Below are positions 22,488-58,401 of a DNA stretch of 64,000 nt, in pieces. The stretch spans positions 44,856,440 to 44,920,439 of the forward strand of contig OX485807.1 in NCBI GenBank assembly GCA_950295325.1, read 5' to 3'. A program made the position numbers and the translations under genes. The DNA comes from Polytrichum commune. Its lineage: Eukaryota > Streptophyta > Polytrichopsida > Polytrichales > Polytrichaceae. Every line of letters starts with the position of its first letter. Positions within the stretch are counted from its first letter, which is position 1. The notes under the pieces are model-generated. The model saw only the letters and a list, made by a program, of their open reading frames with translations, was not told where the DNA came from and did not search any database.

Positions 22488-22721
22488 GAGCATCTCCAAT
22501 CCAGGCTGGGCAAATGGGCCCGGCATCCCATATTTCCCGGCCGTCTTCTGAAGTCCCTGCGATAGCGTTCCCCGTCCAGCGCCTCGGGAGCCAACGCAGG
22601 CTCCAGACCTGCAACCCTAAAATCGCCACGTCGACCTCGGGATGGCCACGGTGGCGGTTAGCCGAGGACCCCTCTCTCCGACCTCGCTCCAGGGAGTTCT
22701 CTCCGACCTTGCTTCGGCGCT

Positions 22722-24047
22722 GTGAATGCTCCGACAGCCCTGCTTCGGAGTGCGAAGATGGAGCGATGGCGGGCCGACCTTGCCGGTGCTATTCAACAGG
22801 CTCTCGATGATTCCGATGACGACGTGCAGGAGCATTTTCTTGCAGCAATCCACCATGATTCAAGTGAATCTGATGAAGAGATGAGGCAGAGGCCAAGAAG
22901 AGGGAGCTGCATTGGGAGGGCGTTTGTGCACAGAGACAGAGAATTGTGGCATGAACACTTGGTGCGGGATTATTTTTCTCCTACTCCTGTTTTCGACAAT
23001 GTCAAGTTTCGTCGTCGGTTCAGGATGCGAAGGGAATTGTTTCTGAGAATTGTAGACTCTGTGGCTGCTTTTGATTCCTACTTTGTCCAAAAACGTGATG
23101 GCTTGGGGAGACTAGGACTGTCTTCTCTTCAGAAGTGCACTGCAGCAATTAGGATGCTAGCGTATGGTGTTGCAGCTGATGCAACCAATGAGTATTGTCG
23201 TTTGGGAGAGAGTACTGCTACTGAGGCAATGCGTCGTTTTGTCAATGCCATTCGCCATTGCTTTGAGAGTGAATACCTTCGCCTTCCCACAGAATCTGAT
23301 CTTCAAAAACAATTACAAATTAACACCCAGCGAGGTTTCCCTGGCATGTTTGCTTCACTGGATTGCATGCATTGGCAGTGGAAGAACTGCCCCGTTGCAT
23401 GGCAAGGGCAATTCCAAGACAAAGATAAGAAGCGCTCTGTGATTTTGGAGGCAATTGCAGATCAATCCCTATGGATTTGGCATTCATTTTTTGGCCTTCC
23501 CGGGGGAAACAACGACATCAACGTCTTGGATCGGTCACCCATTGTGAGAGATATGCTAAGTGGTGACGGTCGGCACTTGAACTTCACGGTGAATGGTAAT
23601 GTCTACCCCCGCTATTACCTACTCACGGATGGGATATACCCCCCATGGGCTTGTTTTGTTCAAACTATCCATGAGGCGCAAGAAGAGAAGAAAAAACATT
23701 TTGCGAAGATGCAAGAGGGGGCAAGAAAGGACGTTGAGAGGGCATTCGGCGTCCTTCAGGCACGATGGGAGATCTTGCGCAACCCTTGTCGACAGTGGGA
23801 AATTGAGGCTATGACCGACATCATTCAAGCATGTGTTATCATGCACAACATGATAATACAAGACGAGAGTGGTTTAGACTTGGAACCATTTTTTGATGAG
23901 GGACTCAGGGGAGGCCGCATGGGTGGGGGACTGTCATTCCACGAGCTCCGAGAAGGGACTAGGGAAATAGAGAACGCAGACAGTCACTTCTCTTTGCGGA
24001 ATGACTTGATCGAGCATTTGTGGCAAAGGAGAGGGGAGTCTTACTAG
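22722..24047 (+). CDS. PIF/Harbinger DDE transposase
   Basis: A 441-residue, single-exon protein of normal length for the family. After a helix-turn-helix-like region it carries the hallmark Leu-Asp-Cys-Met-His-Trp-x-Trp-Lys-Asn-Cys-Pro (first catalytic Asp, about residue 214), then Gly-Gly-Asn-Asn-Asp-Ile-Asn-Val-Leu (second Asp, about residue 263), and Asp-Val-Glu-Arg-Ala-Phe-Gly-Val-Leu-Gln (catalytic Glu, about residue 338). The full DDE triad is present. In this family the enzyme cuts at the element ends and integrates at TNA sites, together with the Myb-like partner. The ATG at 22,722 is taken as start; no in-frame stop interrupts the gene, and its upstream GC-rich sequence lies inside the element. 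Confidence 0.95.
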   Translation: MNAPTALLRSAKMERWRADLAGAIQQALDDSDDDVQEHFLAAIHHDSSESDEEMRQRPRRGSCIGRAFVHRDRELWHEHLVRDYFSPTPVFDNVKFRRRFRMRRELFLRIVDSVAAFDSYFVQKRDGLGRLGLSSLQKCTAAIRMLAYGVAADATNEYCRLGESTATEAMRRFVNAIRHCFESEYLRLPTESDLQKQLQINTQRGFPGMFASLDCMHWQWKNCPVAWQGQFQDKDKKRSVILEAIADQSLWIWHSFFGLPGGNNDINVLDRSPIVRDMLSGDGRHLNFTVNGNVYPRYYLLTDGIYPPWACFVQTIHEAQEEKKKHFAKMQEGARKDVERAFGVLQARWEILRNPCRQWEIEAMTDIIQACVIMHNMIIQDESGLDLEPFFDEGLRGGRMGGGLSFHELREGTREIENADSHFSLRNDLIEHLWQRRGESY

Positions 24048-24049
24048 TG

Positions 24050-24788
24050 AGCTGAATGTAGTTCTCTGCCTATTGTGTGCAAAACATTCATTGAATAAAT
24101 TGGTGCATTGCATGTATTGAAGTGCCTGGATTGAGCTGCCTGAATCTGAAACCATTCAATTCTACCTACGCCTGAATCTGTAACCATTCAATTCATAACC
24201 ATTCAACGAAAACATAACCATTCAACTCCGTGAATCCATAACCATTCAATGATAACTGCTTGCATCAGAATCCATTCAATGTGAACTCGCTGAATCCATA
24301 ACCATTCAATCTGCAACCTGTAACCAGACCCTAAACCTGCAACCTGCATTCAACCTGCATTCTGTCCGAAATTCAACCTGCCCTCAACATTCTGTCCGAA
24401 ATTCTCAATTATGCCTGCATCCTATCCGAAATTCAACCTGCAACCTGCATTCTTCCCGAAATTCAACCTGCACTCAACCCAATATTCAACCTGCAACCTG
24501 CATTCATCCTAAAAATTTATCTGCAACCTGCATTCAACCTAATTCAACCCGAAATCCAACGTGCAACCAGAAAACATTCAACCTGCGATAATTCAACCCG
24601 AAATCATGCAACCAGAATTCATTCAACCCTAATCCCGAAATCATTCAACCATTCACCACGATCATTCAACCACAAATCATTCAACCATTCAACCTCAAAG
24701 CATTCATTCAATCATTCAACCTCAAAGCAATCAACCTGAATACATATTCGACTCAATCCTGATACTGAACCTCAAATTTTATTACAAA
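24050..24788. repeat. Simple repeat between the convergent PIF genes
   Basis: From about 24,140 to 24,740 the sequence is built of variants of ATTCAACCTGCAACCTGC and AACCATTCAAT. It separates the 3' ends of the two convergent transposon genes. No coding potential is supported. Confidence 0.85.
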
Positions 24789-26156
24789 TCAATGGGAGCT
24801 GCCATGGAAATTGTCCAGGCTGGGGCTCCTCGGAGCATAACCAGAATCACACCCATCTCTCGAACCTAACCCCACGCCCAAGCCTACGTTCGATCCCCAC
24901 ACGTTCTGGAAATTCGGAGGAAAAAAGGGAAACGGGATGGGAGGACGGTGAAGGCCGAGGCTGTGCACTCCCGCATCCCTGAATTCCTCAACCCTGTCTA
25001 CAGGTCCGCCACAGAAATCCGGAGGAAACGTGCCAACCTCGGAGGAATGTCTTGCACTCGCATTCGTAGTAGGACTGTGGAGTGCTTCCACATGCGGCAC
25101 TGCTCCCACAGGCGGCACCGCAGGTTGCTGTGCATGCGGCTCAACCACAGCAGGATTGGTGCACTCGAAATCTGCCTTGGACGCCTGAATTCGCCGCTTA
25201 ACCTTCGTCAATTCCTCCTCGCGCCGCAATTGAATGTACTCTCTGGCCATGTCGCTCATGGCTGATTCATCGGGAATTGAGAACAGTTGGAGTGCGGCTT
25301 GATCCCACATGACCGCAACCTTTTCGGCATTGGCAGCTGCCATCTCTGCAGTCGCTCTCGCCTGTGCACGCATTGTACTCTCCTTCACCCGCACCCTGTT
25401 GAGTTCTTCCTTGGCTGCTTTGTTGCCTGTGGGACGCTGCGGCCGCCGAGAGGCTGGAGGTGCATCAACTTCGACGCACTCCTCTCCGTCGTCATCGTGG
25501 CAGGTTGGCTCCTCTGCTCCCTCCGAACTCAAGCGCCTCTTCTTCAGCGGCTGCGGCGGTGGAGTCTTCATCGCCTGTCGCACTCGCACCTCGACAGCCG
25601 AATCGAACCACCACGGGATGTCCTTCAGGATTGTCCAGCAATGGATGTAGAGGAAGCCCTGTTGCTTAGGGTGCTTGACACGATAGAGCTCCAGCGCTCG
25701 TTGCAGAACGTCCTCTAGCGATGTGCCACTCTCCTTCAAATTCAACACCTGTGAATGCACGGCAACAAATTTCGCAACATCGTGTTTTATCGCCCCCCAT
25801 TTGGTTTCCAAACTCCTCGCTGGCCTATCCTCCCTCCCCTGCGGCTTGTGCTCTTGGTAGTGTCGCGCAATCCGATCCCAAAACGCCCCCGCACGCTGTC
25901 CGTTGCCTGCGATCGGGTCCTGCGACACATGAAGAAATGACCGACATAGCTGCCGCTCCTCCTCCGAAGCGAAGTTCTTCCCCTTTTTCGCCTTGGATGC
26001 CATGGTCGTCGCCATCGTGGCAGGTTGACTCTTCGAAGGGACCTTGGTAGCGGGCGCAAGCGAGAGCGCGTACTTGCCGGCCACAGGAGCTTCTTTGGCG
26101 GGGCCAGGTCCTTTACTAGCGGTGCCGTGTATGCGTTGGACCCCGGCAGGAGCCAT
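24789..26156 (-). CDS. PIF/Harbinger Myb/SANT-like accessory protein
   Basis: An open minus-strand gene convergent with the transposase. A Lys-rich start is followed by a trihelix Myb/SANT-like region (Phe-Ala-Ser-Glu-Glu-Glu-Arg onward, with Phe-Trp-Asp-Arg-Ile and Leu-Glu-Thr-Lys-Trp). Then come Trp-Trp-Phe in the linker, a nuclear-localisation-like Lys-Lys-Arg-Arg, and Arg-Pro-Thr-Gly-Asn-Lys-Ala-Ala-Lys, the signature seen in NAM-associated C-terminal domains of plant PIF second proteins. The C-terminal part is helical and then Pro/His-rich. In the family this protein helps the transposase bind the ends and enter the nucleus. The open frame extends to 26,273, beyond the element end at 26,221, so the start must be internal; ATG at 26,156 or at 26,015/26,003 (nearer the conserved domain) is likely. 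Confidence 0.88.
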   Translation of the reverse strand: MAPAGVQRIHGTASKGPGPAKEAPVAGKYALSLAPATKVPSKSQPATMATTMASKAKKGKNFASEEERQLCRSFLHVSQDPIAGNGQRAGAFWDRIARHYQEHKPQGREDRPARSLETKWGAIKHDVAKFVAVHSQVLNLKESGTSLEDVLQRALELYRVKHPKQQGFLYIHCWTILKDIPWWFDSAVEVRVRQAMKTPPPQPLKKRRLSSEGAEEPTCHDDDGEECVEVDAPPASRRPQRPTGNKAAKEELNRVRVKESTMRAQARATAEMAAANAEKVAVMWDQAALQLFSIPDESAMSDMAREYIQLRREEELTKVKRRIQASKADFECTNPAVVEPHAQQPAVPPVGAVPHVEALHSPTTNASARHSSEVGTFPPDFCGGPVDRVEEFRDAGVHSLGLHRPPIPFPFFPPNFQNVWGSNVGLGVGLGSRDGCDSGYAPRSPSLDNFHGSSH

Positions 26157-26224
26157 TGGGAGGCGCGCCGCAGGAGGCCCAACGGTCTTGCGGCCTGTTA
26201 TGCGCTGGACTGGAGATGCTCTAA

Positions 26225-26557
26225 GCCCAGTCTTTTTGTATGAGGCACGCCCCTTCAGGAATTTCACGATCATGAGGACTAACCTAATCCAAAGAATTCA
26301 GGAGCCCACGAAGGAATATATCCAAGTACACATTGATGAGTAAATTTGAAACATTAAACTGATCAACAAAGACCAACTTACAAAGAGCCTAATGTGCTAT
26401 CTGTCAACTTTATGTTGAGTCATTTGAAAGAGAGACAAACGTAGTATTTGTGAACCGTTTGCAACTATTAACCACATGACTAAAACTCTCCACACTTTGA
26501 GCCTATAAAGACCTAACATAAGATCTTGTAAATTCACTACATTTCAATCTTGGACAT
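26225..26557. repeat. Segmental duplication B, after the PIF insertion
   Basis: Continuation of the match to 9,406-10,081. It contains the single CCTAACAT (about 26,511-26,518) that is the unoccupied site of the MITE at 9698-10,035. No gene here. Confidence 0.85.
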
Positions 26558-27937: not shown

Positions 27938-28071
27938 TACACTAAATATCCCAATTAGTGAGGGTGGGCTAATAAGTGTGTGGGAAATTGGTGATGGTGA
28001 TACTAAATTTCTTTACACTATGAAATTAGTGCCACCCGAAGATCTGGTAGGCAATGTTCATTTTGGCATTA

Positions 28072-28100
28072 AACACTATATTCGTTAATCGGAGACTTTT
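28072..28100 (+). repeat. Left terminal inverted repeat of the 16.2-kb element
   Basis: Starts AACACTATATTCG and differs from the reversed right end at positions 14, 19 and 20 of 29. It is followed by a short inner inverted pair, GAGACTTTTGAAAGTCTC, immediately inside. Confidence 0.9.
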
Positions 28101-28473
28101 GAAAGTCTCAAAATAAAATATGCCCATAGTTTGGGATGCCAATATTGTGGGCATATGGAATATTGGGAACATCAAGAACATGACGATTTAAAAATTCGCA
28201 CGTAAAGCATATTCTTATTACTAAAAATAGAGCATTTCAATTAAAATGAAAACGTGAGTTCCATGTGGAAAATAACAATCGACTCTAAAAAATAAATGGT
28301 TTATGTCATTATAGAGTTTGGGGTGCGCATCCCATAAGTAAGGCTCTTATGAATTTGGATGGCACATCCCAAACGTATACCACAATGGAATGTGACAAGT
28401 CCACTAAATCTATTAAAAACCAAGTCTACTAAGCGTCCATGTTTTTCGCCATTAACTCCCACCTATGTTATGT
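28101..28473. other. Left subterminal region of the 16.2-kb element
   Basis: Non-coding. It contains inverted GGGATGCC/GGCACATCCC-like motifs (TTTGGGATGCC near 28,131 and GGCACATCCCAAAC near 28,360) that could be subterminal binding sites. It separates the terminal repeat from the 3' end of the DUF7869-like gene. Confidence 0.4.
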
Positions 28474-31400
28474 TTACACATCTCCATCTTCCGCTTCATA
28501 TCCATTCTCGGCGTCATTTTCTGCCGCTGCAATACGTGCCAAGTTGTCTTTGGCAAAATCTATATGTTTTTGGGGGATGGTCATTGTTTTTGTTTTGGAA
28601 CCTTTACGCGGCTTCCAAGCACAAAGTATAGTGTCTGTGTTTATCCAAACCGGTGTATACGCTGAGTCCATTGTCCACTTAAAATTCTTTTTGGTGTCCC
28701 AACCTAAATAAGTGCGTAGCACGTTTTGGTCTTTAGTGCTTGGACGACAATATTCCACCTCAATTTGACGAAAATTGGGGCTAGTTCGAATAAAATTGGG
28801 TGAAGACAATGCTTTCACCAACCAAATTGGCTTGGGATGTTCCTCATCCCCTGCTCGTACAAGGACCAAATAACCTTCATGGCAATCAACACCTACACGA
28901 AACGACGGTGCCGGTCGATTGCGGGCAGGGCCAACGTAATGCTCGTCCATTGCGAACTCTTCACGAACGTCTCCATTGCTAAAAAACATGGTGTCTGACT
29001 CGACAACCGTTAAACGGCTTTGTGGCCAAAATCCTTGTGTTAAAGTTGTACAGGTGTCGCCACCAAATGTCATTAGGGCCGAGCGAATGCGATCCCAATA
29101 CGCAATCAAAGGTTCATGAGTATCTCTAACACGTCTAGTGATGTCCTCCTCACACAACTCTTTCCAATATTCAATGAATCTGGATATGCCTTTGATGATT
29201 TCCGGCCCATTCCTCATGGGGTCGGGTTTGCAAGGCTTTGGATCCCCATCCGGAAGCAAACATTTGCCATCATTGTCTTGACGCCATACGAGTATACCAT
29301 TATCCGGGCCCCAATTAGGAGATGTGCACAAAAGCTTGAATTGCATGGCCGGGAGACCATCGTCCCTTATATAGAATCGGAATTGTTGTGCTTTGGTATG
29401 CCCCACCAAACGGTCCCCTCCCTTCAACATGTATGGCTTGATGAAGGCCTTGAAATCTGGTACTTCCTCAATCAAGTGCGGAATTACTGGCATATGGTCC
29501 AAATCCATATACGATTTCATAAGAGGTATGGTTGGAAAATCTTCTTCATGCAACTTCATGCTCCACCGTCCGAATGATGCATCAATGTCGTCGTGTGTAT
29601 GTCCCACCATCAAGAAAGACACAAACACCTCCTTGAAGATTTCTTTCGCCACGAGCAATGACCAAAAACAAAATACGTATCGACATTTGTTGTCCTTCGC
29701 ACAATTATCAAGTTGAGCGTGGAGAGTTGGAGGCAATGGTTTTGCACAAATGGGTTCTCCGGGTGGTTCTGGCAATGACGACATACAAACCTCCTTCCCC
29801 GCAAGCACTGCCTCATAAAGGGATGTGGTTCCACAACCATCAAAAAGTGCACGGGAAGAATGTACCGATGGCTTCTCAAGATCGCGCAAGAGTTTTGCAA
29901 ATGAACCCACCGTGTGGTTAGCATCCCCAGGGTAAAAATCCAAACCATAATGGGCATACTTTACGTCCCCATGGCCGTGGGCAATCATACCTGGAAAAAA
30001 CAAACGATGCGTGACCAAAATAATCAAATAACCACTAAACGGATGTATGAAGTTGGACATTTGCCAAACACACCCAAGAAAATTGGATAGACTTTAAACA
30101 CGTAGTTGTGATTTCATACAAACCTGTGACAGCTACGGGCAATTTGAAGAGACCATCCGTGGCCTTTATTTTGCGTGCATAACAAGGGCATGCGGTTTTG
30201 GCGTGGTCCATTTTATCATGGATGACTGTTAGAACCTCTGTGGGCCTCATTATGGATAGAGCACGATTCTTATAGTAATTTTGACGGTGTGCCTCTTGAT
30301 TGTTGACATGCTCAATATATTTTTTCTGGTGTCTGGAATGAGATTCAGTGCCTATGGGGTGGGCGTCTCGAAGACCTTTGTATTTTTCACACGTCGTACA
30401 TCTAGCGAACTTGTCCCCGGGTCTTTTCAAAATGTATTCCGCAAACTGCTGGTTTTTAATCACACTCAACTTAGACAAAGAAATGGGCCCACATCCCGCT
30501 ATGCGACCCACTTCATTGATGTCCGTTAAGATGTTCTTCCATTTTGTGCCCGTGGGCAACACCATTTGAACAACCTTCTCCCCTGACGACAATGTCCTCG
30601 TCTTGTGGGGCATTGCATCGGCCAATGGCACTATGATGGTGGATAGTGTCGCGGACGCTTGCAGTGTAGCCTCCCTAGGTTTCTTTGTGCCCGAGTTGCC
30701 ATGAAATCGAGAGCGGCGACCCAACGATGAATACTTTCGAAACTTATAAAAGTCAGCCTTGGAGACGGCGTGGATGGTATACCACGCTGTACAACACACA
30801 TTAACATTCTCAAGTGTCACCACCTTATGCCCATGTGTATCAAGGTGCAAATTTCTATGGACCTCGAGTTTCTTAGCCGACCTCATATGAAAATCCGCAA
30901 GCCACATCTCTTGACGCAGAGACCTAATTTTCTCCCGCAGGAAAAATTGGCAACATTTCCTCGCGCAACAATCCTTGCCGAACACTAGACGGATAGATTC
31001 GTCCCCCAAAAGCCGATCCCGTCGACGCTCCTTATCTCCGCGAGGCACACGGTTTGAATCATATCTACGGAGGCCTTTGCGAGGACGTGTTTTGGCCAAC
31101 AAAGCTAATTGTGTTTGCTTATGCCGCCGCTCATGATCCCACAAACTCACTTCCTCATGTAGAACTTGACGAAGCGGCCATCGACGCAAGGAAAATCTCC
31201 ATGTCACCGGGACCTCTAGCGGAAGCAAAGAGTTCAAGATGCACACGCCAACATCATCGAGACCTAGGGCGTTGGCATCGACACAATCACGGGGATTGGA
31301 GTTTCTACATATGCCATCTACCACCGGGACACCAACCTCGTTGAATAAAACGACATCAAGGCCAACCCATTGCTCCCTCCCGAAACCGGCACACAACGGA

Positions 31401-31600
31401 ATGTCATCGTGGTCATCTCCGGAATGCAGAGATTGTTCGTGAACTTCCAAAGATTCATGGGAGGATGTATCCACAAACACCCCCCTCACGTTTGGCACAC
31501 CATTACTATCTGCCGACGGGGAAGACACTTCACATTCAGCATCGGATGACGATGCATACGTCGACAACTCCAATGAACTAACACCCACATGCAACGCCAT
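28474..31600 (-). CDS. DUF7869-like putative DDE-type transposase, two exons
   Basis: Exon 31,600-30,124 and exon 29,990-28,474 flank a 133-bp intron (30,123-29,991; donor CACAG/GTTTGT, acceptor TTTTTTCCAG). The splice keeps one frame and yields about 997 residues without stops. The N-terminal third is acidic; a Cys-rich part (Cys-Ala-Arg-Lys-Cys-Cys, Val-Cys-Cys, Cys-Thr-Thr-Cys, Cys-Pro-Cys) follows. Candidate catalytic acids are Asp in His-Asp-Lys-Met-Asp-His (about residue 462), Asp in Gln-Leu-Asp-Asn-Cys (about 587), and Asp in Gly-His-Thr-His-Asp-Asp-Ile-Asp (about 626-629), the layout of DUF7869 proteins with an RNase H-like fold. The start is chosen because ATG 31,600 follows a splice-acceptor-like CTAG, aligned with the same context in the decayed copy at 60.6 kb; an in-frame ATG at 31,654 exists. 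A transposase role is inference. Confidence 0.82.
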
Positions 31601-32330
31601 ACCACCTAGACCAACGACCAGGAAATGATCAACCCAACCACCACCGCAATGCATTCAAGAGAGGATAGAATATATGTGGAGATACATGGCCCAAAATTGA
31701 CAAACAAATTTTGGTGCACCATTGGAGAACCTCACGCACAAAGACGAACGTGCGTCCCAAAAAAACATTTTCAGCATAAGTCTAGGAGCCTCACTAATGT
31801 AAACAATACATGGACAAAGAGGAGAACAATCGTTAGTCGTCCAGGAGGGCCCTGCTGTTCGGACCAGCGCCTGTCCCCATACAACCGACGACGAAATCAT
31901 AAATCCGAGAACGCCACATTCATTTACGAACGCGCATTCGTGACCTCAATAACTTCTCCATGTGCATCCGGCGGCCTTCGAGATCCCTCATCTGAGAGCA
32001 CCCTCAGGAATATCGGTTTTGTAGGTCAAAGTACCATGTTGACTTAGGAACCTGCGCGATATATTATCACAAGAGAACACTTGTCCATACGCACAAAAGT
32101 AGTAAATCTGAAGATGATGCCTGAATCAAGTCCAACAATATTTTGAACACTGAGCACCTTCATATTGTGAATTTGATTATGTTGACTTTTGCTTACCTAC
32201 CCATTCACGAACGGACGTTCGTAAATGGGTGCGACCCTGTGTTCACATCCTTTACGGACGAGCGATGAGCATATTTTTCTTGCTATTCTGTGTTCGTATA
32301 TAACTGTCATACTGATGTGTATAAATGAAG
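31601..32330. promoter_or_regulatory. 5' region of the DUF7869-like gene with first palindromes
   Basis: Upstream of the minus-strand gene. It holds one near-perfect palindrome (31,923-31,943, imperfect right arm), one with a single arm mismatch (32,204-32,225), and partial half-sites near 31,745 and 32,245. A 140-codon plus-strand open frame at 31,625-32,047 is antisense to the gene start and palindrome-containing; I do not call it. A 5' untranslated exon is likely here because the start codon follows a splice-acceptor-like sequence. Confidence 0.45.
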
Positions 32331-32925
32331 ATGCGTTGCTGGATGCGTAGACAATAATGACATGTATTTACGAACGCATGTTCGTAAATTACCGACCATC
32401 AGGTACCAATAGACACGGGTCAAATATGTATGTATGAACCTCGAAGGCATATTTACGAACGCACGTTCGTAAATAAATGCCATGGATGATGTGCATGTGA
32501 CTATCCATGAGTAGCTCAATCCAAAACATGCTCTCCTGTGGGATTTACGAACGCACGTTCGTAAATTACCGACCATCAGGTACCAATAGATACGGGTCAA
32601 ATATGTATGTATGATCCTCGAAGGCATATTTACGAACGCACGTTCGTAAATAATTGCCATGGATTATGTGCATGTGACTATCCATGAGTAGCTCAATCCA
32701 AAACATGCTCTCATGTGGGATTTACGAACGCACGTTCGTAAATTACCGACCATCAGGTACCAATAGATAAGGATCAAATATGTCTGCATGGTCCTCGAAG
32801 GCATATTTACGAACGCACGTTCGTAAATAACTGACATGGATTACGTGCATGTGACTATCCATATGAGTAGCTCAATCCAGAACATGCTCTCATGTGGGAT
32901 TTATGAACGCACGTTCGTAAATCCT
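32330..32925. repeat. 177-bp tandem repeat with two palindromes per unit
   Basis: Just over three units. The 22-bp palindrome starts at 32,367, 32,452, 32,544, 32,629, 32,721, 32,806 and 32,900, so spacings alternate 85 and about 92 bp for a period of 177-179 bp. Inter-palindrome sequences are well conserved (ACCGACCATCAGGTACCAAT in one arm, CATGTGACTATCCATGAGTA in the other). Nearly all palindromes here have CA as the two central bases. The array sits 0.7-1.3 kb upstream of the DUF7869-like gene. Confidence 0.93.
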
Positions 32926-32973
32926 TGCCATGTACAGGTCCGAATCATTTGTCTAAACCTGAAGCTCCTCATC

Positions 32974-32995
32974 TTTACGAACGTGCGTTCGTAAA
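32974..32995. repeat. Perfect 22-bp palindrome
   Basis: TTTACGAACG, centre TG, CGTTCGTAAA. It lies just beyond the 177-bp array and marks the end of the first palindrome cluster; none is seen from here to 36,305. Confidence 0.9.
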
Positions 32996-32999
32996 GTTC

Positions 33000-35140
33000 C
33001 GGTATTTACGGCGGTATATGCGGTAGGTACAGCCTGTACTGTACCTGGTTGGTGTAGGGTTGGCGCACACGAAATGGCTTGAGCGCGTTCAGTGAGGTCT
33101 GTAGAGCGCACACTTGCATGTGCCGCTGAAAAGAGCTTTGTTGTGGGGGGAAGAGCTTTAAGTACTTCACCCCGCTGGTTCAAAATCCCTTGGATGCTCT
33201 TTAAAAAACGGATTCCCGCCACCTTCTTTGACCTAACAATCTCCCATTCCATCCATGCGGAATTATATAAATAGCACTGTCATGTATGGAACATGCCTTG
33301 CATGCACGCCAAAATATTGAAAATATATAAATCGGTTGCACATCTTAGTTGTGACCAAGGTCTCATCGAAATATATGTATATACATATATATATATCTAT
33401 ATCTATATATACACATAATGTCTAAATATGGAGATGGTTAACATTGAATATTTAATGATTTGCGACTAAGATATGAAGTCCAAGTTAATTGACAATTGAT
33501 GCCTAATAAAGTTATGAATGTCTAAGTCATAGATATATAAAAATATATCTATACATATATACACATACACACACACACACACAATGAGGTCAGAGTGGCT
33601 AAGAACATGTTGCGGACGCCCCTAAAATTATAGGTATCATATGTTTCACATCAAAAAATGACTGTAATATGGTCACCAAGTGCATGAATACAACTAAAAA
33701 ATCGGGTTAATCCATAATGGCTTGCACTAGGGTAGATTGAGGACATTATGAACTAATTATACCTAATAATATATGTAAGTTAGGTCTTCTTTCAAATGGT
33801 ATCTAGGTGTGAAAATAAGGAATTAAAATGGCATGAGTAGGAAGGATTAATCAATTTGTAATGCTGCATAGTATGATAGCGTAATGATCATTGAGACTTG
33901 AAACCATACTAGCTACCGTAACGTTGAATCATAGTTACAATTATTATGTGTTTGACGTCCTATTGTAAATTGAATTTTCCTCCACTTGTTGTAAGGGTAC
34001 GGATACACATTGGTTAAATGTTTATTAGATCAATGGTGATATTTATAGTAAAATGCATTATTCGATTGTTAGTTTAAGTTGACACATGATTAAATGAGTT
34101 GAGGTCCTATTGGAAATAGACTTTTAGGGTTTGGGGAAATGCACTATTAATTTAGAATGGTGCATACAATAGTATGTACTTACAATTAATATATGTTTTG
34201 CATCCTATGAGAAGGATGTGCATCATCATAGCTTAAAGTGTTGATATAAATTGAAGTCTTAAGACATGCATGTTATTATAATAAGATCGTGGATTGTGTG
34301 ATGAAATTTCACTCAAAACTATTAAGGTGAAAGAGGGAATATTTGAAATTTCACTTATCACCTAAACCAAAGTTTTATCTCAAATCTATTAATTTGGAAT
34401 GTGAAAATGACAATTGGCATCATTATCAATTATTATAGTTGTTATGAACGGAATTAAGCATTCTCCATCCAACCAACATTGGTAGACCAATTTGACCTGC
34501 CCTCAAACAACAACATGGCCACATATAAGATAGGTTGGTAAGATAAAAAGATGCAGGGATGTAGGATTTAGGGTTTGCGGTTAGGGTTTAGGGTTAGGGT
34601 TAGGGTTTGGGGGTAGGGTTTAGGGGTTTAGGGTTTGTGAAAGTTGTGTATGTGGTATTTGGGTTTATGTTTTAGATTGTTACTAGGATACATTACACAC
34701 ACAAACAATATTGACTCCTCAAAAACCCTTGTAATTGCACTAACTTCATTCATCGCAAGCTCGTAGTTGATGCTAGCAAAATAGTTGACCACTCCAGAAA
34801 TGCATTAGTTCAAGCTAACACCTAATATTGGAACTTGAATTGACATCCTATCATATAGAAACTCTCCGCAATCTCATATTATGAATTCCTTTTTGCATGT
34901 AATATTTGTTTGAGGAACCATCGAATTAATTGAAAGATATCTAGCTCTTACATAAACTATATTTTAAAACACTATATACATATCTTGGGGGTGGATTCTA
35001 CATTGACAACCTAGGAAATGACATGCATTGTTTATTACGAATTAACTGAGCATACTTTTCTAAAATATGTTTACAAGGAATCCAAATGTAGAGGTACTAA
35101 GGAAATAAAACGAGTAAAATTCATGTATTTGAACTAAGCT
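33000..35140. other. Spacer between the divergent element genes
   Basis: AT-rich and without a supported gene. It is homologous, in inverse orientation, to about 55.0-59.3 kb in the older copy; for example 34,240-34,500 matches about 55,815-56,110 and 33,100-33,350 matches about 59,030-59,290. It contains AT/TATC and CA microsatellites (33,371-33,418 and 33,540-33,585) and the telomere-like tract at 34.57 kb. Position 33,345-33,347 is the unoccupied TAA site of the composite MITE at 58,402-59,029. Confidence 0.75.
34566..34638. repeat. Interstitial telomere-like repeat
   Basis: About ten imperfect units of TTTAGGG and TTAGGG in one direction. The homologous spacer of the older copy (near 55,770-55,790, read in reverse) passes directly from the left flank to the right flank without the repeat, so the tract was gained, or lost, in only one copy. 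Confidence 0.9.
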
Positions 35141-35209
35141 TTTCAAGTTAATGCCCTAAACGCGTCCATTACATATAAATATGTCAAAGCATGAGTATAA
35201 CATGAAGGG

Positions 35210-35470
35210 TTCCAATATACAACCATGTCCCATCTCCCATCGCATCCCATCCCATCCCATCCCTTCCCATCACCTCCCATACCATCCCATCCCATCTCCC
35301 TCCCAGCCCTAGCCAGTGGAGCTGTGCCACGTGGCATGTGCTGGGAAACCCTAGCGGCGCAGCTACCTCCCTGCGCCCCTTCCTCTTCTCCTCATTTGTC
35401 ATTTCGAGGAGAGGAGGAGCGGAGCGCTTAGAGAGCGAAGCTCTTGCTTTTTTTAGTCTTGAAGTTTTAA
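35210..35470 (+). promoter_or_regulatory. Probable promoter of the four-exon gene
   Basis: A pyrimidine-rich CCCATC repeat (about 35,227-35,302) precedes the perfect G-box-type palindrome GCCACGTGGC (35,326-35,335) and the telo-box AAACCCTA (35,346-35,353), followed by a C/T-rich and GAGGAG-rich tract. These motifs are known from plant promoters; their use here is inference. The block is GC-rich in otherwise AT-rich sequence and faces the plus-strand gene. Confidence 0.45.
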
Positions 35471-35474
35471 ATTA

Positions 35475-35860
35475 GCTTTGTTGCAAGTTTTGAGAGATTT
35501 CAGATTGAGAGTTTGTGTGAAAGCTTTTGAGTTTGTGAAAGCTTTCATTGTGAAAGCTTGTGAGTTTGTAAAAGCTTTCAGTGTGAGAGTTTGTGAGTTT
35601 CAAAAGCTTGAGAGCTTGAGTAGGAAAGCTTCAGAGTTTCGGATTGAGAGCTTGAGGGTGATCTTTAAAAGCTTGAGAGTTTAAGGAAGCTTCAGAGTTG
35701 AAGCTTGAGAGTTTAGGGAAGCTTCAGAAGTGAAGCTTGAGAGTTTAGGGAAGCTTCAGAAGTGAAGCTTGAGAGCTTAGGGAAGCTTGAGAGTTAAGGG
35801 TTTGCTTAAGAGTTCAGAAGCTTGAGAGCTACAAGCTTGTGAGTTTTGTGTACATGAGAG
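35475..35860. repeat. AAGCTT-rich degenerate tandem repeat in the 5' leader
   Basis: Many variants of GAAGCTTGAGAGTTTAGGGA. From about 35,690 to 35,800 there is a clear 32-bp unit, AAGCTTGAGAGTTTAGGG followed by AAGCTTCAGAAGTG. It lies between the promoter-like block and the palindrome-rich intron, so it is probably transcribed as 5' untranslated leader. Confidence 0.75.
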
Positions 35861-36229
35861 TATACTAGGGTTTGTATATAAGCTGTGAATGCTTGAGGTC
35901 TGTATTAGAGAGTTAACTGAGTGTGCATTTGAAAGGCAATTGAGTGTGCAGTTGTGAGGATTTCTGGGATTTTCAGAAAGAGAAGAAGCAGGATTTGAAG
36001 TGTGCAGCAATTCAATGTAATTTCTTATCCTTTCCAACTCCTCTCACATTCTGAAAATGTTGCTTCTTGAATTCAATTTGTTTTGTTACATGCAATGTGA
36101 ATTATCACTTTCTTCTTCATGTTTCATTCTCAATCTCATTCTGCATCTCAATTGCGTTCTGATTCAAGATTTGCATCATTCTGACCAAGATCTGCAGACA
36201 TGGCTGCAAGCAGGTTGCTAATAAATGAG

Positions 36230-36965
36230 ACATATACATATATATATGTATTCGTATATGTACGAATACGTATATGTACGGACAGGGGATCCCAAAACCA
36301 TCACATTTACGAACGCTCGTTCGTAAATGGACATACACTGCATACCCACCTCCATTTACGAACGCTCGTTCGTAAATGGACATACACTGCATACCGAACC
36401 TCCATTTACGAACGTGCGTTCGTAAATACGCACTCCACGTTCATTGGAATGCTTTATATTTACGAACGCACGTTCGTAAATATACGCCAAATATCACTCA
36501 GATGGAACCTTAACTTTAATATGAACCTGTCCGAATATCTAAAGAACAAATATAAAATTGCGAACACCAATAAAACAACTCACATGTACTTACGAAAACT
36601 AAATCAACCAAATGTCCGAAAAGATAGACCAAATGGACATACTTACGAACGCGCGTTCGTAAACAAAACCAAATCTAGAAAACCTATATCTTTTACGAAC
36701 GATCGTTCGTAAAAATAACCAAATATATTGCAAATACATTCATGACGAGTAGTCTCTTTGATCTTCATATCTTTTACGAACGCTCGTTCGTAAACTCAAT
36801 ACTAAAAATTTATATTATCTTGCAACCCCTCATTTACGAACGAACGTTCGTAAATATAATTACATCAATTGCAAAGACGCATTAACAATGCGCAGTATGT
36901 GGGATATGCATGTCATTTACGAACGTTCGTTCGTAAAGTCACTAATTATTTATATTCTGTTGCAG
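36230..36965 (+). repeat. Second palindrome cluster, in the probable 5' intron
   Basis: Palindromes of the 22-bp family start at 36,305, 36,355, 36,405, 36,459, 36,642, 36,692, 36,773, 36,833 and 36,915. The first three are about 50 bp apart, with the intervening GGACATACACTGCATACC kept between the first pairs. Centres vary (CT, TG, CA, CG, AT, AA, TT) while both arms stay nearly invariant. The stretch ends in TTCTGTTGCAG directly before the ATG at 36,966, which looks like a splice acceptor, so I infer that most of the cluster is intronic. The last palindrome and the acceptor region have a diverged counterpart near 54,171-54,192. Confidence 0.85.
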
Positions 36966-38260
36966 ATGGCAAGATCAAGCAGAAGCGCCATTGAGATGTT
37001 CGCGGTGAAGGTCGATCGCCTCCAAGAGTCGGTGTTAGACGACAACGGCAACGACAACTATGTCCCCAAGGAAGACTTCATGGGGGAGTGGACGGCACTG
37101 CTAGAGAAGATCGGGGACGGCCTCTTCTGCATGCGCTTCACCTACGAGCTGGAGACCAAATCGGACCAGCCTGAACAGTGGGTTCAAATGAAGACGTGGG
37201 AGATAGAGTTCATAGAGGCCCAGGGGGAGTATGTAATTCTGGACATGAAGAACAAGAAGGATCATATCAACCTCTTGTTGCATTTCCAGAAACATACCTT
37301 CTCCTACCAATACGCCACCAACAACGTAGTGGAAGATGCCAAACACTTCGACCTGGACGCACTCTTCTCGAAGTATGCCTTGAGCCCATACTGGACGGCA
37401 AGGAAATTGACAGCCCTCGCCTTGAACATCTCGAAGTACAACAGTGTGGTCACCGAGGCCAACAAGAAAAAGAAGAGCCCCAGGAAACCATCCACATCAA
37501 GGGCAGGAGGATCAAGAAGTGCACCCAGGCCTGTGCCTTCCGCGAGTAGGGCGACGGAGGGCCCCAGCAGGCATTCCACGCCATCCAAGAGGACAAGGGA
37601 AGAGATGGAGAAATCGGTAGTCACAGATATCGCGGAGGTGAGCTCGCCGGTATTGATGCCTACCCCCTTGAAAAAGGGCGAGAACCCAGACGCTGTGAAG
37701 GCCACCATAATCCTTCGAGACTTCAACAACTACTCGAAGGATTGCTGGCCTATGAGACGCCACTTCACATTCAACGTGGACTGCTTCAAGTGCGAGAAGT
37801 CCCCCAACAAGTAGGTGGTTCGGTCTCGCGAGAGCGGTGGTGTGAAGTGGCAGATCAACAATCTCATGAACAACGTCAAGTGGGATAGGCAGACCGTCTG
37901 CGTCATGCCGAAGGGGCTGACATCCCGTCCGACGGAGAAGGACTGGCCACGGATCCAGAATGGGGAGTTCTGGATCATAGACGACCAACACAGCTTGGAG
38001 GCGTCCCAGATAATCCTCAAGGACGACAACTTCTAGCACGAGCTGAAGGCAGATTTGCGCTATTGGAAGGCGTTCATGGTGTGGTCGGATGACTGGGACA
38101 AGCTGCGGAAGATTTCCACCTTCCTCAACTCCGGCAACAAGATCAAGGCATTCGAGGCGTCGTGGGCTGCCAACATAGTGGCTGCAAGAGACGTCTGGGT
38201 CGCCCACGGGTGCCCCCCCAAGGAAAGGGAGAATGCCAAGACCCGTCTCCCCAATGGAAG

Positions 38261-38375
38261 GTGAGTTTACGAACGTTTGTTCGTAAAGTTGGGCGCATTT
38301 CTAGTTCTTTTACATTCAAATTTACGAACGTGCGTTCGTATTGTGTGCATCACTGACTTTTGTTTTTCTCTTCAG
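38261..38375 (+). other. Intron 1 of the phosphatase gene, with two palindromes
   Basis: GTGAGT donor and TTCTCTTCAG acceptor. One palindrome starts five bases after the donor (38,266-38,287, one arm changed at a single base) and another is at 38,321-38,340. Palindromes thus fill over a third of this 115-bp intron. Confidence 0.85.
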
Positions 38376-39700
38376 GCTTTTTGCGATGCGATGGTGGACA
38401 AGTTCTCCTCCATCGATATGAAGTCCACAACAACCAAGTCTGTCCTGGAGCTCAAGGGCGAGCTCCGCCTCATCTGTTGCACCAGGGACACTTAGGACTT
38501 GTGGACCCAGTTTTTTGATGACACAGCTCGGGAGATCTTGTCAACCCCGACACCGAGGAAAAATATAGCGCAGAAAAGACCGGGGAGGCCCCTCCACTGC
38601 TGAGGGAGTTCTTTAGGTCCCTTCAAGGGTTGACGGAGTCCGAGTTGCAGAGGTGCGCAGTGCATCTTCTTGGGAACACAGTGGGTAGAACCATACCCTA
38701 CCCCAAGATATTTTTGAAGAGGCCAAGGCACAAGCCCGGCACGTATTCCATAAAGGAATGGTGCGACCATTGCAAGATGAAGACGGCGGCAATGAGGGAA
38801 TTGAGTGCCCTCATACCCGAGTACGCACTCTTCCTGGCCGACAGGGACGTGAATTGGGCCAGTTGGAAGATGTTGAAGGTCGACTACAACATCTCGGGAG
38901 CCTCAATGCGTTGCCTTGTCAAGGAGCACGCCTCCATTTTGAAGCAGAAGGGGAACAAGAGGACAAAGAAAACCGAGACGGATCCCCAGGAGGTGGAGCA
39001 ATACAAAAGGTTTTTGGCGCGGAAGAGGTTGGCCACATTCGAGGGAGTGGCCAGATTTTGTGTGGTGACAGCCGGCGTAGAGAGAACAACTTTCTCTAAG
39101 TGGGACGGCACCATCAGCAGGTCCGAGGTTAGGGAGGACCGACGGGGGTGCCCATTTGCCATGATCGATTTCAGGGGGATCCCGGGTGCGTCGAGGCAGG
39201 GGGGGAAGGACATGCCATTCTACAACCCCTTCATGACCAAGTTCAAGGAGCACAAGTCGCCGGACATGAGGGAGCCTCACGTTTGGCTGTGGATAGTCGA
39301 GCAGGAGAAGCTCTCTGCTGTAGTCGACCTGTACGAGAAGTTGATCAAATTTGAGTACAACATCTTCCACAACACTTACATGCCCGCCAAGGCGGAAGGG
39401 ATCGTGGCCATCAACGAGGCCAGGGGAAACAAACAGGTGGGGGCGGTCAGCCTCGTCTTCTTGACGTACAACGCGCTTCGGAATGGGCGAGCCCCTGTCA
39501 GGGCGAATACTGCGTTCAAGAAGATCTACAGCATCCCCCATTCCCCTCCCAAGGATCTGCTGCAGGAGATCTTGTACACTATCTTCCCGGCGCAGGAACT
39601 CAGGTTGAAGTTCTACGTTTCCGTGTTGCAAAGCATGGCAATAAGCGGAGAGACTGTATACAACGTCTGTGGAGGCATCAAATTCATGTACGCTGCAATG

Positions 39701-39925
39701 GTAAGCTCTCCAACTAATATTTACGAACGCTCGTTCGTAAAGTTCACCTCAACTTGTTTGGTTTTCATTAAAATTTGCATTGTTTCTCGTCGTTGATGTT
39801 TACGAACGCTCGTTCATAAAGTTCACCTCAACTTGTTTGATTTTCATTAAAACTTGCATTGTTTCTCGTCGTTGATGTTTACGAATGCACGTTCGTATAT
39901 TCTAACGTATTTGCTTGGATCTCAG
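39701..39925 (+). repeat. Intron 2 with a 79-bp tandem repeat and three palindromes
   Basis: GTAAGC donor and GATCTCAG acceptor. Palindromes start at 39,720, 39,799 and 39,878, exactly 79 bp apart, with AGTTCACCTCAACTTGTTTG and GCATTGTTTCTCGTCGTTGA conserved between them. Later copies carry one or two arm changes. Confidence 0.9.
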
Positions 39926-40926
39926 ATGCTGGGGCTGGTCGTCAACAGCTTCATTGACGCCATCGACGAGGAGGACTTCCAGGTGCACAGGGCGAAGGCC
40001 TCCACGATGGACCTGGAGGACATGTCCCTCCCGAGGACGGACATCAACATGCCCGTCGACGAGGGCATGCCCGCCATGGAGACGGACGACGACGAGCCCG
40101 CGCCCGCGCCCTCCTACAACGTCGAGGCGATCCTCCGATCCTTGGACGTCACGCCTCTGCGAATTTTGGGGCCGTTGGGAAACCCATCCGACGTGCAGGG
40201 GACTCCGGGTGGATACACGGGGTCGTCCGCGGGGACAACCCAAGATGTCCTCCCCGCGAGAACGTCTGGAGCGGAGGCATTCGGCACTCCAGGGGGGTGC
40301 TCGACATCGGTGTCGCCCAGGCCAGTCGTGGTTCCCAAGATGGAGAACCTCGACCTTCTGGACCAACGCTCCCGCCCGTCGTTGGACCACTTCCGCAACA
40401 CTAGGCGGAAGATGAAGAAGACCCCCTACGTGGAGCTGCCTCCGGGGGCAATCATCGAGGTCTCCGACGAGGACGAGGGAGATATGGAGATAATGGTCGA
40501 GCTGGGGGTCGACTTCGACAAAAACAAGCGGGTCAAGGAGGAGGCCCTCTCCGTCGCCGAGCTTAACGCCAAGCTCGAGCAGAAGATGAAGGAGGACATG
40601 GCGAAGGCTGCTGAGGAGAATGCGAAGAAGATGAAAGCAATTCAGGAGGAGCTAAGGCAATCCAACGAGAAGACGGACGCCATCCTCGCCATGCTCAACA
40701 AGATGCAGAGCTTCTCAGCGCCCCCCCAGCCGGCTTACCCCTTCCCTGGAGGATACCCATCGCAATACCCCCTGCCAGGCCAGTACCCCCCGCAGGGCCA
40801 TTTCCCAGGAGGACCATCACACCACTCCGCGCCCCACCCTACGCCTGTTGGGACTCCTCCGCCCCCAGAAGTTCCCTCGACTGCCTCCCACGATGCTGTC
40901 GCGGCGGCCATCCAGGAGGACGAAGA

Positions 40927-40948
40927 TTTACGAACGCGCGTTCGTGAA
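40927..40948. repeat. Palindrome inside coding exon 3
   Basis: TTTACGAACG, centre CG, CGTTCGTGAA, one arm change. It is read in frame as Leu-Arg-Thr-Arg-Val-Arg within the phosphatase gene, after an acidic stretch. Confidence 0.9.
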
Positions 40949-41308
40949 TCTTCAGGTCCTCCAGTCCTCACCCCTCCCCCTTCAAGGGTAGGACTGCCCT
41001 CAGACACTGATGCGTCGTCTTTCACCGTCGTCCCCAGGGTAGTAGACAGACTTGGCAATGACTCTGCGCGACACACTGACATGGTCATTGTGGAGGACAC
41101 GCAGGGGAGCCCCAATGACGCACCAGGAGTGCATGGGATGGACGTGGAAGACACCCATGCGGCGTGGATGGAGGATGTCAGGATGGACGCGCTCGACCTG
41201 GGCGCCGAGGAAGAAGACGCGCTGCGCATCCAGGCGACACAGGCGTCTCAGTCGGAGCGTGAGGCCGACGCCATGGAAATGGAGGCGGCTGCGGCTGCGG
41301 CTGTGGAG

Positions 41309-41330
41309 GTTACGAACGCGCGTTCGTTAT
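41309..41330. repeat. Second palindrome inside coding exon 3
   Basis: GTTACGAACG, centre CG, CGTTCGTTAT. It is read in frame as Val-Thr-Asn-Ala-Arg-Ser-Leu after an Ala-rich stretch. The reading frame differs from that used at 40,927. Confidence 0.88.
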
Positions 41331-41389
41331 TCGTTGAGGAGGGACCTGCTGCTCGGTCCAGCGCCGCTTCCCCTCCCCCCGATGACGAG

Positions 41390-42004
41390 GTAAATCTCCT
41401 CTGAGAATACCATTTTTTACGAACGCGCGTTCGTAACCTCACTAACATCGCGGTGTTTTTCTCTTCATCGACACCCTTGGCCCACGCGAGCCCTCTTCAG
41501 CGACCCCCCTTATGGACGACCAGTTTTGTAGGACACGACATCATTTTGCCTTAGGAAAATGTGATAGACTATCACGTGAGAAATGTAAATATTCAACGGA
41601 TTAATATATAGACCCATGTTATCTGCATCGCATTTCTTCAAATTCTTTGCCCTCGACCCCTTCTCGTATATTGTGGATGTTGATGCGATTATGTTCATTC
41701 TTGTGTATCCACCTCATTCACGAACGCTCGTTCGTAAAAGGGTGCGACCCCCTGTCCACCTCCTTCACGAACGACCGCTCGTAAATGTACGTGTAGCCTC
41801 GCTCACGAACGAGCGCTCGTAAATGATGCGCACCGCCCCCGCAGCCTTCATTTACGAACGCTCGTTCGCAAGTGTGCCCTTGAGCACATTTTCCTTGCAC
41901 TCTCCTCACTTCCTCGTCTTTCCCCATAATGCATCGTCTTCATTTTCTACGCAAAATTTCATTATTGGATCATAGCATTAAACTAGTCGCGTTGTTCATC
42001 ACAG
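41390..42004 (+). repeat. Intron 3 with five palindromes
   Basis: GTAAAT donor and CATCACAG acceptor. Palindromes or close variants start at about 41,416, 41,717, 41,764, 41,802 and 41,850. The four in the second half are spaced 38-48 bp and several have TTC ACG or CTC ACG in place of TTT ACG in the left arm. Confidence 0.88.
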
Positions 42005-42907
42005 GACCCCCCGGAGATAGGTCGCAACCCCTCGACCAATGGACCTCCCACCCGGAACAAACCTTTCATCGTTTTTGACCTCAACGGGGTGTTGTGTCAC
42101 ACCCAACACATCCCAAGGGTCCCCACGCGTCCCTTCCGTCACCCTGACGAAAGGGACTACGACGGCGAGCTCGACACCCTCATTAACCGCAAGGCTGTCC
42201 GCTCCCGTCCCGGCTTGCGTGACTTCCTTCGCGAGGTGGTCGAGTTCGCTCACGTCATTGTGTGGAGCTCCATGGTCATGGAGAACACGGAGCCCATCGT
42301 CCACTTCTTGTTCCGTGATCTCCCGAGCCCTTGCCTCGTCCTCGGCCAAGAGGACTGCGACGAGCTGCTCGACGAGAAAGGTCAACCGGTGCCCAAGTTT
42401 GGCGGTCGGGGCGGAGGACAACAGTTCCTCAAGGTCCTCCGCTCCAAACTCTGGCGAGGCGTCCCCCGTCTGCAAGGGACGCCGCACGGGTGGTGGCCGA
42501 CTCCAGAGAACACCGTCCTCATCGACGACAGCCCCACCAAGAGCGTCTTGAACCCCCCGGGGAACGTCATCTTCCCGGACACTTGGACCGGCGATAGGCA
42601 AGACACATTTTTGGTCGATAGGCTAGCCCCCTACCTTAGAAGGCTCGTGCTCCACGCCGGTAGCATCCCATTTTTTGTTAGGTCCAACCCCTTCGGCAAT
42701 GCGGCACTAAGCCCCCGCGATAATGTATTCAAGAGCATCATGAGGCTCGCCAAACTCAATAAATTGATTTGAAATGCCTCCATGTCTTTGCTTGTTATCA
42801 TGTGGTTCACATATCTAATGCTTGCTCCGTTTTTGGATGTCTTTTGTTGTTGTGATTGTTGTTGTTCTTGTTCTTGCCCATAGTCTGCCCCCATATGCGA
42901 CGCCCCT

Positions 42908-43827
42908 ATGGTCGACGGCTCTTCCCGTCCCCTCTCACCCCCCGCATCCCCTTCCCGCGACGTCACGGACTTCCAAATGCCATCCCTCTACCACTTCTCG
43001 GCGGTCGACGCGGCCTCGGCCGTGGATTACTCCCGCGACGTCGGCATCGACGACGGCGTCGTCAACAGCCCGCCCCCAGCACTTGTCCCCCGCGCGTACG
43101 CCCCGTCGCCCTCCCCCCTCTCCAAGGAGAAACGGACGCTCATTCGTTTGGGACACCTCTCGCCCTCGAGGGACGACGCCGTCGCTCGTTGCGGGCCGAG
43201 CCGGCGTCTCCGCATGGACTTTGCCCCCGCCGACTCCGTTCCTCCCCCCGCAACGTCCTCCGCGATCGTGGGCCCTCCACGCCTCGACTCACCCCCGCCA
43301 TCCAACAGTGCAATAGTTCCATCGGCTCCCGTCGACGCCCCCCTCGTTCCCACCGTTCCCCGCATGGACGTCCCCAAAGCCAAGGTGCCCTCCTCAACCC
43401 TAAACCCCTTTCCCATTTTTGCTTTCCTTGTCTTCCGTTTGCGTGCCGTTCTCTTTACGAGCGCCCATCCCAAACCGCCCTCATTATTTTCCCCACTCCA
43501 TTCCTATTCTTATCTTCCTATGACGTTGTTTCGCAGGTGGCTACCCGCTCGCTTGGTGCCCGGCCCTCCTCCACGTCCTCCTTGGACAGCCACGCCCTCA
43601 AGGCCGCATCTTCCGAGTCCGATCGTTGTCTGGCCCTCCGGAGAAGCGCAAGACGTTCCCTTTCGCAAACGCCCTCGTATTCTACTTATAATACCACCTC
43701 GTTAAATTCGGGAGCGCGTCCTGAAACATGCAAGAACGACACATATTCCTTTCCAGGCAACACACAAGGATACAGTCGTGGGCCTGAGATTTTTAGAGCC
43801 TTGGAGGCCGCCAAAAAAAAGACTTAG
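42908..43827 (+). CDS. Ser/Pro-rich hypothetical protein, two exons
   Basis: Exon 42,908-43,384 and exon 43,537-43,827 flank a 152-bp intron (donor AAG/GTGCCC, acceptor TTTCGCAG) in phase 0, giving 255 residues. The first exon is Ser/Pro/Asp-rich without predicted fold; the second is Ser/Thr-rich with Arg-Arg-Ser-Ala-Arg-Arg and ends Ala-Ala-Lys-Lys-Lys-Thr. No domain is recognised. It lies 135 bp after the phosphatase gene on the same strand and could be its partner or a late exon of a longer transcript. A degenerate palindrome (about 43,133-43,152) falls in its first exon and a partial one (about 43,455) in its intron. Without splicing, the first exon's frame runs on to 43,705 with different residues. 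Codon choice is strongly GC-rich, as in the phosphatase gene. Confidence 0.55.
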
Positions 43828-44246
43828 CCGCCAAAAAAAAATAGTGGGTTGGACTAGTGTGACTAGAAGCGTACTAGTGGGACGGACTCCCTAAATGGGC
43901 TTAGGTGTAGAACATATTTAAGTGCTTACTTTCTATGCTATTCCAAGTTACTCAAGACATTGATGGTATTTCCATTATAATTGTATTTCAATCCCAATTA
44001 ATTCATTCAACTTCCATTCATTCTTCGCATCTTCCCTTCCATTCATAACGAGTTGTCATTTCATACGCAACTATTTTCATGTATGCCTCACATTTTTGTT
44101 CACTTTCATGACTTTATGTATAATAATAGTAGCATACCATTATACATATGGGATTTTTAGTCGTCATTACTGGTCCAATTTTGAAATGTGCATCCTTATA
44201 TAGTCTCATAATCAACAAAAAGTCTCTAATTACCGAATATAGTGTT
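43828..44246. other. Right subterminal region and right terminal inverted repeat
   Basis: Non-coding and AT-rich. The final 29 bases are the right terminal repeat, reading AAAAGTCTC then TAATTACCGAATATAGTGTT on the plus strand. A duplicated short phrase AGCCGCCAAAAAAAA occurs at about 43,809 and 43,827. Confidence 0.8.
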
Positions 44247-44250
44247 ATTA

Positions 44251-54650: not shown

Positions 54651-54659
54651 TGGCTGCGT

Positions 54660-58400: not shown

Positions 58401-58401
58401 A

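Follow-up and report, generated by a model that had tools for sequence, protein, structure and literature searches.

The DNA transposon and its genes

Here we describe a large DNA transposon of the moss Polytrichum commune. It lies in a 64,000-nucleotide stretch of contig OX485807.1 (positions 44,856,440 to 44,920,439 of the forward strand, assembly GCA_950295325.1), referred to below as the window, with positions counted from its first letter. Positions 28072-44246 constitute a complete element of about 16 kb, which belongs to a high-copy family of large elements of the cut-and-paste type. Its left terminal inverted repeat (TIR; 29 bp, 28072-28100, forward orientation), recognized by its end pattern and its genome matches, agrees at 26 of 29 positions with the inverted right repeat (44218-44246, reverse orientation), a value reached by none of 20000 random 29-mer pairs. 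The target duplication ATTA is read on both flanks (28068-28071 and 44247-44250), and a paralogous, unoccupied target site with a single ATTA is found at 11596-11599. Hereby, the empty site and the joined flanks of the insertion align as one block of 400 columns with 94.5% identity and 11 gap columns. A preliminary description of the window, made from its letters alone, had reported the imperfect 29-bp repeats with 26 matches, the 4-bp duplication and the unoccupied site, and all three withstand this analysis.

The left part of the element encodes, on the reverse strand, a protein with the Pfam domain DUF7869, our candidate for the transposase. Exon 1 (30124-31654) encodes Cys pairs as well as the first Asp of a conserved pattern (HDKMD), whose second and third Asp are contributed by exon 2 (28474-29990; PF25273, E = 8e-39). 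The two are separated by a GT..AG intron of 133 bp (29991-30123). The long open DUF7869-like gene of the preliminary description is thus real with respect to its domain, while the single open frame has to be replaced by two exons. Gene 2, on the forward strand, encodes a large protein with a (D/N)GQH motif and comprises three exons. Exon a (36966-38260), supported by the ratio of nonsynonymous to synonymous substitution rates (dN/dS) and by homologues, contains this ParB-like motif, which reads DDQH in the window copy, as well as in-frame stops; exon b (38376-39700), supported by homologues, has one in-frame stop in the window copy; and exon c (39926-41404; dN/dS 0.18 and 0.28) encodes an acidic, Pro/Ser-rich tail. 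Because gene 2 carries stops, at places where the copy at C1:5765316 (on contig C1) has none, the window copy is probably not fully autonomous. The idea that exon b encodes an N6/N4 DNA methyltransferase, prompted by a GG motif, gained no support: no Pfam match was found, and hhalign with a single template gave a probability of 0.6 and E = 0.09 for PF01555.

Gene 3 (41987-42772, forward strand) encodes a NIF/FCP1-type HAD phosphatase with a DLNG motif (PF03031, E = 3.6e-16; dN/dS 0.09 and 0.28), in agreement with the phosphatase-type gene proposed earlier; the start of this gene was not found. The Ser/Pro-rich gene of the preliminary description is either the constrained tail of gene 2 or an open frame at 42856-43827. 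The latter was rejected as a gene, as it lacks coding constraint (dN/dS 0.59-1.62 in three frames and two copies). In comparisons of the window copy with two further copies of this type, dN/dS amounts to 0.13-0.33 for DUF7869 (0.17-0.33 in exon 1, 0.13-0.16 in exon 2), 0.02-0.28 for gene 2 and 0.09-0.28 for the phosphatase. All three genes are under purifying selection in window-type copies.

End families and target duplications

At up to three mismatches the window-type end has 1470 forward and 1475 reverse matches in the genome, that is 2945 matches of one end type in 408 Mb, compared to none for the reversed control. A search with the window-type DUF7869 protein, in which the best 80 of 1915 candidates were scored, retrieved copies 93-100% identical to it. 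Further lineages were separated by a Pfam DUF7869 search of the genome (best 150 of 1491 candidates scored), resulting in four diverged DUF7869 lineages in bounded families with three end types in all. The 502-aa (amino acid) lineage has nearly the same end as the window type. The 692-aa lineage possesses a separate end, ATGGGGATATTAACTAAAATGAG, which begins ATGGGG (49 + 46 genome matches, control 0), and the fourth lineage is bounded by AACACCGGTTTCGTTAAAAGTGC (73 + 70 genome matches, control 0). Compared without gaps, the window and 692 ends are identical at 14 of the first 25 positions; 212 of 100000 shuffles scored as high.

Besides the window, exact 4-bp duplications of varied sequence flank 42 of 48 end pairs from the four families, which represent insertion products of the cut-and-paste kind. 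They comprise 15 of 18 pairs of the window end type, all 15 with different sequences, 10 of 10 pairs each of the 502 and 692 types and 7 of 10 of the fourth type. The three inexact window-type pairs consist of a single-base difference (CTTA/CTTG), a mismatch (C1:5765316) and an inverted duplication (C1:63035834/63068917), which we counted here. The latter holds two mirror-image copies (L037-L038) with mirrored flanks, i.e. a genomic inverted duplication or an assembly artefact. Elsewhere (L039, C2:18577-18734) two element ends adjoin each other, separated by no more than the two bases AT, so that one element seems to have inserted at the border of another. Leaving the inverted duplication aside, elements in the window-type pairs picked for reading measure 7.6 to about 25 kb, and fuller copies of the four families about 12, 16, 17 and 25 kb. 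Both full-length and internally deleted copies are present. The genome search proposed in the preliminary description, using the 29-bp ends and the DUF7869 protein, has thus yielded bounded copies that pair ends with the gene and carry 4-bp duplications in four lineages.

A shared gene plan

In all four diverged lineages the DUF7869 gene is located near one end of the element. A zero-mismatch end lies 352-411 bp past the gene in 15 of the 16 copies on contig C1, the opposite of gene copies never bounded by these ends, which the preliminary description had named as speaking against its proposal. In the 692 type, the family's own end is situated 1491-1836 bp past the domain match in 39 of 51 listed genes, and the mate end 19-31 kb off in 32 of those 39. 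In the 502 copy at C1:7843608 the element's own DUF7869 match likewise lies near the right end. One 692 element was read whole, while the 502 family was covered by the left part of C1:7843608 and by the DUF7869 ends of two more copies; in both families a gene-2 homologue and a NIF phosphatase are located at the end opposite DUF7869.

Gene 2 is present in the read element of all four families, with identities to the window type of 38% (502) and 24% (692) and, for the fourth family, an hhalign match of 86% (E = 4.7e-6). The phosphatase occurs in three of the four (44% and 35% identity to the window's in the 502 and 692 families); it was not found in one copy of the fourth family by Pfam on large frames and tblastn. 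Among the best 80 window-type DUF7869 copies, at least 66 have gene 2, at least 65 the phosphatase and at least 60 both, in the expected orientation and within 30 kb, compared to 4 and 4 in the same-strand control and 2 and 3 in the other-side control. Given this co-occurrence across families and the low dN/dS values, the three proteins appear to be maintained parts of the element, and the label "cargo" used in the preliminary description does not hold. True cargo may be present in a 24.6-kb copy (L052-L053, C1:34337052-34361702) with the exact duplication ATCC. Of this copy 6 kb were read per end, and these 12 kb contain no more of DUF7869 than a short piece and carry a protein-kinase-like frame (PF00069, E = 1e-7), which appears to have been captured.

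Like other phosphatases of the NIF/FCP1/dullard type, the enzyme of the element has the PF03031 domain together with the first D and the motifs WSS and DDS, which are retained in all three families that encode it. The usual HAD first motif is DxDG. The transposon-borne enzyme differs in that an invariant Asn (DLNG/DVNG) replaces the second Asp, which may indicate an altered chemistry. A literature search found no paper combining "NLI interacting factor", "transposase" and "terminal inverted repeats".

Family-specific palindromes

The window element contains 31 copies of the palindrome TTACGAACGNNCGTTCGTAA at up to three mismatches, where 0.01 would be expected across the whole window. Ten palindromes of the type TTTACGAACGNNCGTTCGTAAA are located upstream of the DUF7869 gene (31924-32994) and nine upstream of gene 2 (36307-36936); two lie in gene-2 intron a (38267-38341), three in intron b (39721-39898), and another seven are distributed over the tail of gene 2 and the region preceding the phosphatase frame (40928-41871). 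The palindromes of the 502 family, GTTTGGGTCGNNCGACCCAAAC, and of the 692 family, CCACGGGTGNNCACCCGTGG, likewise precede genes and occur within intron b of gene 2. In the fourth family the part of the element upstream of DUF7869, where the search was made, harbors an array of GTGGGGCATATGCCTCAC. Counting only exact 9-bp arms around two free central bases, 17 sites are present in each of four sequences (the window element, a full copy, the 692 locus and the left portion of a 502 element), and three shuffles of each contain none.

Genome-wide, at up to one mismatch, 5060 sites of the window type and 11977 of the 502 type were counted (controls 0). The 85 distinct window-type sites listed are all situated no more than 12 kb from a listed element gene or end. 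For the 502 type, 52 of 91 listed palindromes fall into two paired-end intervals and 17 into two intervals set from one end. Two deleted derivatives, p1 (9.5 kb) and p16 (10.2 kb), lack gene 2, retain of DUF7869 only a 49-residue piece of exon 1 and of the phosphatase only a fragment; they keep 32 and 39 exact-armed sites, and their duplications match. Because these coding-poor derivatives keep them, the palindromes seem to have a role in cis that goes further than regulating genes.

DUF7869 as candidate transposase

The conserved acidic pattern of the DUF7869 protein reads D..DN..GH(T/I)H(E/D)D(I/V)D, and its D..DN..D-x-D arrangement is retained down to 33% core identity, the value between the fourth lineage and the window protein. 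The row representing the fourth lineage in the alignment has S at the second D, while other copies (L060, L061, L063) have D. About 40 residues separate the second Asp from the third, a spacing compatible with DDE/D enzymes. Together with the place beside the end and the four bounded lineages, this pattern makes DUF7869 the best candidate and the likely transposase. A Pfam search with the DUF7869 core returned DUF7869 alone and no named transposase. Matches to PF25273 were found in none of 14 control genomes, and scans of viral contigs revealed no relatives. A scan of prokaryote genomes gave a single 4.3-kb contig (L084), labelled as a cyanobacterial metagenome-assembled genome, with an open DUF7869 frame of 963 aa whose best segment matches the query core at 63% identity; it probably represents plant contamination of a public prokaryote genome. 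In a literature search covering 5.39 million papers, no mention of DUF7869 was found.

Several points weigh against the interpretation as a multi-gene transposon mobilized by DUF7869. The four lineages were located via DUF7869, so that its presence in each is by construction, which limits this part of the preliminary proposal that DUF7869 is the transposase; the adjacency to the end is not by construction, and it stands, as do the acidic pattern and the bounded lineages. The structure prediction suggested for an RNase H-like fold yielded no fold: AlphaFold2, applied to L084 and both window exons, gave a predicted local distance difference test (pLDDT) value of 32 and a predicted template modelling (pTM) score of 0.25. 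No credible PDB relative of DUF7869 emerged either (best E = 0.29 with a single sequence, none in a core profile search). An exact duplication is absent in 6 of the 48 end pairs, including C1:5765316 with its open genes (AAAT vs TAAA), the 692-type end is absent at 12 of the 51 listed genes, and among the matches listed at least one partner is absent at 20 of the 80 window-type genes, both at 9. The ParB signature of gene 2, FWIIDGQHSLEA, is accompanied by weak matches only (PHROG ParB E = 0.095 and 0.2; hhalign 10%, E = 0.003), and part of the 692 gene 2 matches a PHROG "transposase" just as weakly (E = 0.064). Finally, the fourth-family palindrome is imperfect, and 22 of the 91 listed 502-type palindromes lie outside any interval set. 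Taking these points into account, we still regard a multi-gene transposon with DUF7869 as its transposase as highly probable.

Alternative explanations and superfamily assignment

One might argue that the transposase proper is encoded by gene 2 and that DUF7869 is an accessory protein, as gene 2 is found in the read elements of all four families, not by construction, and has the weak "transposase" match mentioned above. We consider this very unlikely, since it is DUF7869 that adjoins the end and keeps its acidic D..DN..D-D pattern across such divergence. A deleted copy (C1:21542854) that has lost gene 2 and kept a broken DUF7869 gene is neutral in this question. The palindromes, being multicopy, partly arranged in tandem arrays and in some cases located inside reading frames, could also be minute parasitic sequences that multiplied within the element and contribute nothing to its life cycle. 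This explanation appears improbable, because the palindromes of three families differ in sequence and yet share a common design (9-10-bp arms, two free central bases) and common places, namely in front of genes and within intron b of gene 2, and because no distinct listed window-type site lies farther than 12 kb from an element gene or end.

With regard to the superfamily, the closest published description is that of Sola, which has a DDD transposase, 4-bp duplications, TIRs of 11-1124 bp and lengths of 2-9 kb, with some elements above 15 kb, and occurs in the moss Physcomitrella (PMC10741241), for which Sola1 is listed (PMC9033089). The 4-bp duplications (42 of 48), the variable inverted repeats and some elements of more than 15 kb agree with these passages (PMC10741241, PMC9033089), and the 29-bp TIR and sizes of about 12-25 kb fall within the Sola range (PMC10741241); for the DDD transposase the resemblance is confined to the motif level. 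The present elements differ in their two or three conserved genes, where the Sola passages name the transposase alone, in copies of about 12-25 kb and in their family-specific palindromes. Comparing Sola by description only, we think it likely that the lineage represents an enlarged, unusually elaborate Sola branch. The distinctness from known superfamilies claimed earlier is doubtful in view of the Sola-like duplications and motif (PMC10741241), and at best partly right; in its favor are the missing match to a named transposase, the larger size and the extra genes. A separate superfamily, unrelated to Sola and with 4-bp duplications by coincidence, would be in line with these latter features, as the elements exceed most Sola in size (2-9 kb, some >15 kb; PMC10741241) and Pfam links DUF7869 to no named transposase; it is nevertheless rather doubtful, because duplications, DDD-like pattern and moss occurrence would all fit published Sola (PMC10741241, PMC9033089).

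The CACTA elements of plants are large, encode a second DNA-binding protein and carry binding motifs in repeated, subterminal arrays. The element resembles them in its size, its second protein and its repeated motifs, and CACTATA stands two bases inside each end, so that a CACTA (En/Spm) element with misread ends might be suspected. Virtually nothing remains of this possibility: the repeat includes the first bases AA..TT, the 692 family starts ATGGGG, the duplications comprise 4 bp instead of 3 bp, exact in 42 of 48 pairs, as the preliminary description had already argued for the window copy, and Pfam scans of the submitted frames gave no CACTA transposase domain. Other superfamilies were rejected as well. 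PIF/Harbinger elements combine a transposase with a partner gene; they generate a 3-bp TAA duplication and encode a Plant_tran transposase (Plant_tran/DDE_Tnp_4), in contrast to the 16-kb element, which has neither. The TTAA-specific duplication of piggyBac and Kolobok is not found among the duplications read, which are varied and include no TTAA. A Gypsy-type integrase domain, as expected for Ginger, did not appear in Pfam scans of the submitted frames.

Neighboring elements in the window

A PIF/Harbinger element occupies 22488-26221, with GAGCATCTCCA-type ends, a TAA duplication, a Plant_tran transposase gene (22662-24047) and a frame with a NAM-associated domain (24789-26297); the paralogous copy near 9403 is empty. 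The window contains a segmental duplication (7726-15979 and 21210-49772; main direct blocks about 86-98% identical), which supplies the empty sites of both this insertion and the 16-kb element. At 51889-60807 lies a decayed, reversed relative of the 16-kb element with gene-2 fragments, pieces resembling p1 and p16 and six palindromes, one of them exact.

Proposed mechanism and implications

In the mechanism that we propose from these comparisons, the DUF7869 protein would bind the element ends, cut by means of a D-D-D triad (HDKMD; Q-DN; GHTH(E/D)D-D) on an RNase H-like core and join the element into a target staggered by 4 bp. The large (D/N)GQH (ParB-like) protein of gene 2 would be a second core component, and the phosphatase would be encoded by the third gene in three of the four families. 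With less certainty, an element-encoded protein may bind the family-specific palindromes as a dimer, binding that might set expression and activity of the element. Gene 2 is the most likely binder on account of its ParB-like signature, despite the low scores, and its presence in four families. Because they are kept in coding-poor derivatives, the palindromes probably function in cis, either in mobility or in countering silencing, and not solely as promoter sites.

New here are the conserved multi-gene plan and the co-diverging palindromes. A bolder and quite tentative idea is that of a eukaryotic transposon with a pair resembling bacterial partition systems, in which a ParB-like protein and parS-like, family-specific sites, together with a phosphatase directed at the transcription machinery of the host, would jointly regulate, mark or protect the element. 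If this were true, the coding-poor relatives with long palindrome arrays would be parasites of that system. For the unnamed Pfam domain DUF7869 our analysis offers a likely function, and genes once taken for passengers of a giant plant transposon turn out to be conserved parts of it. The families form a natural series in which the DNA site, and presumably its binding protein, changed together, making the specificity of self-recognition testable. With 2945 matches of one end type, this transposon lineage is a major builder of its host genome.

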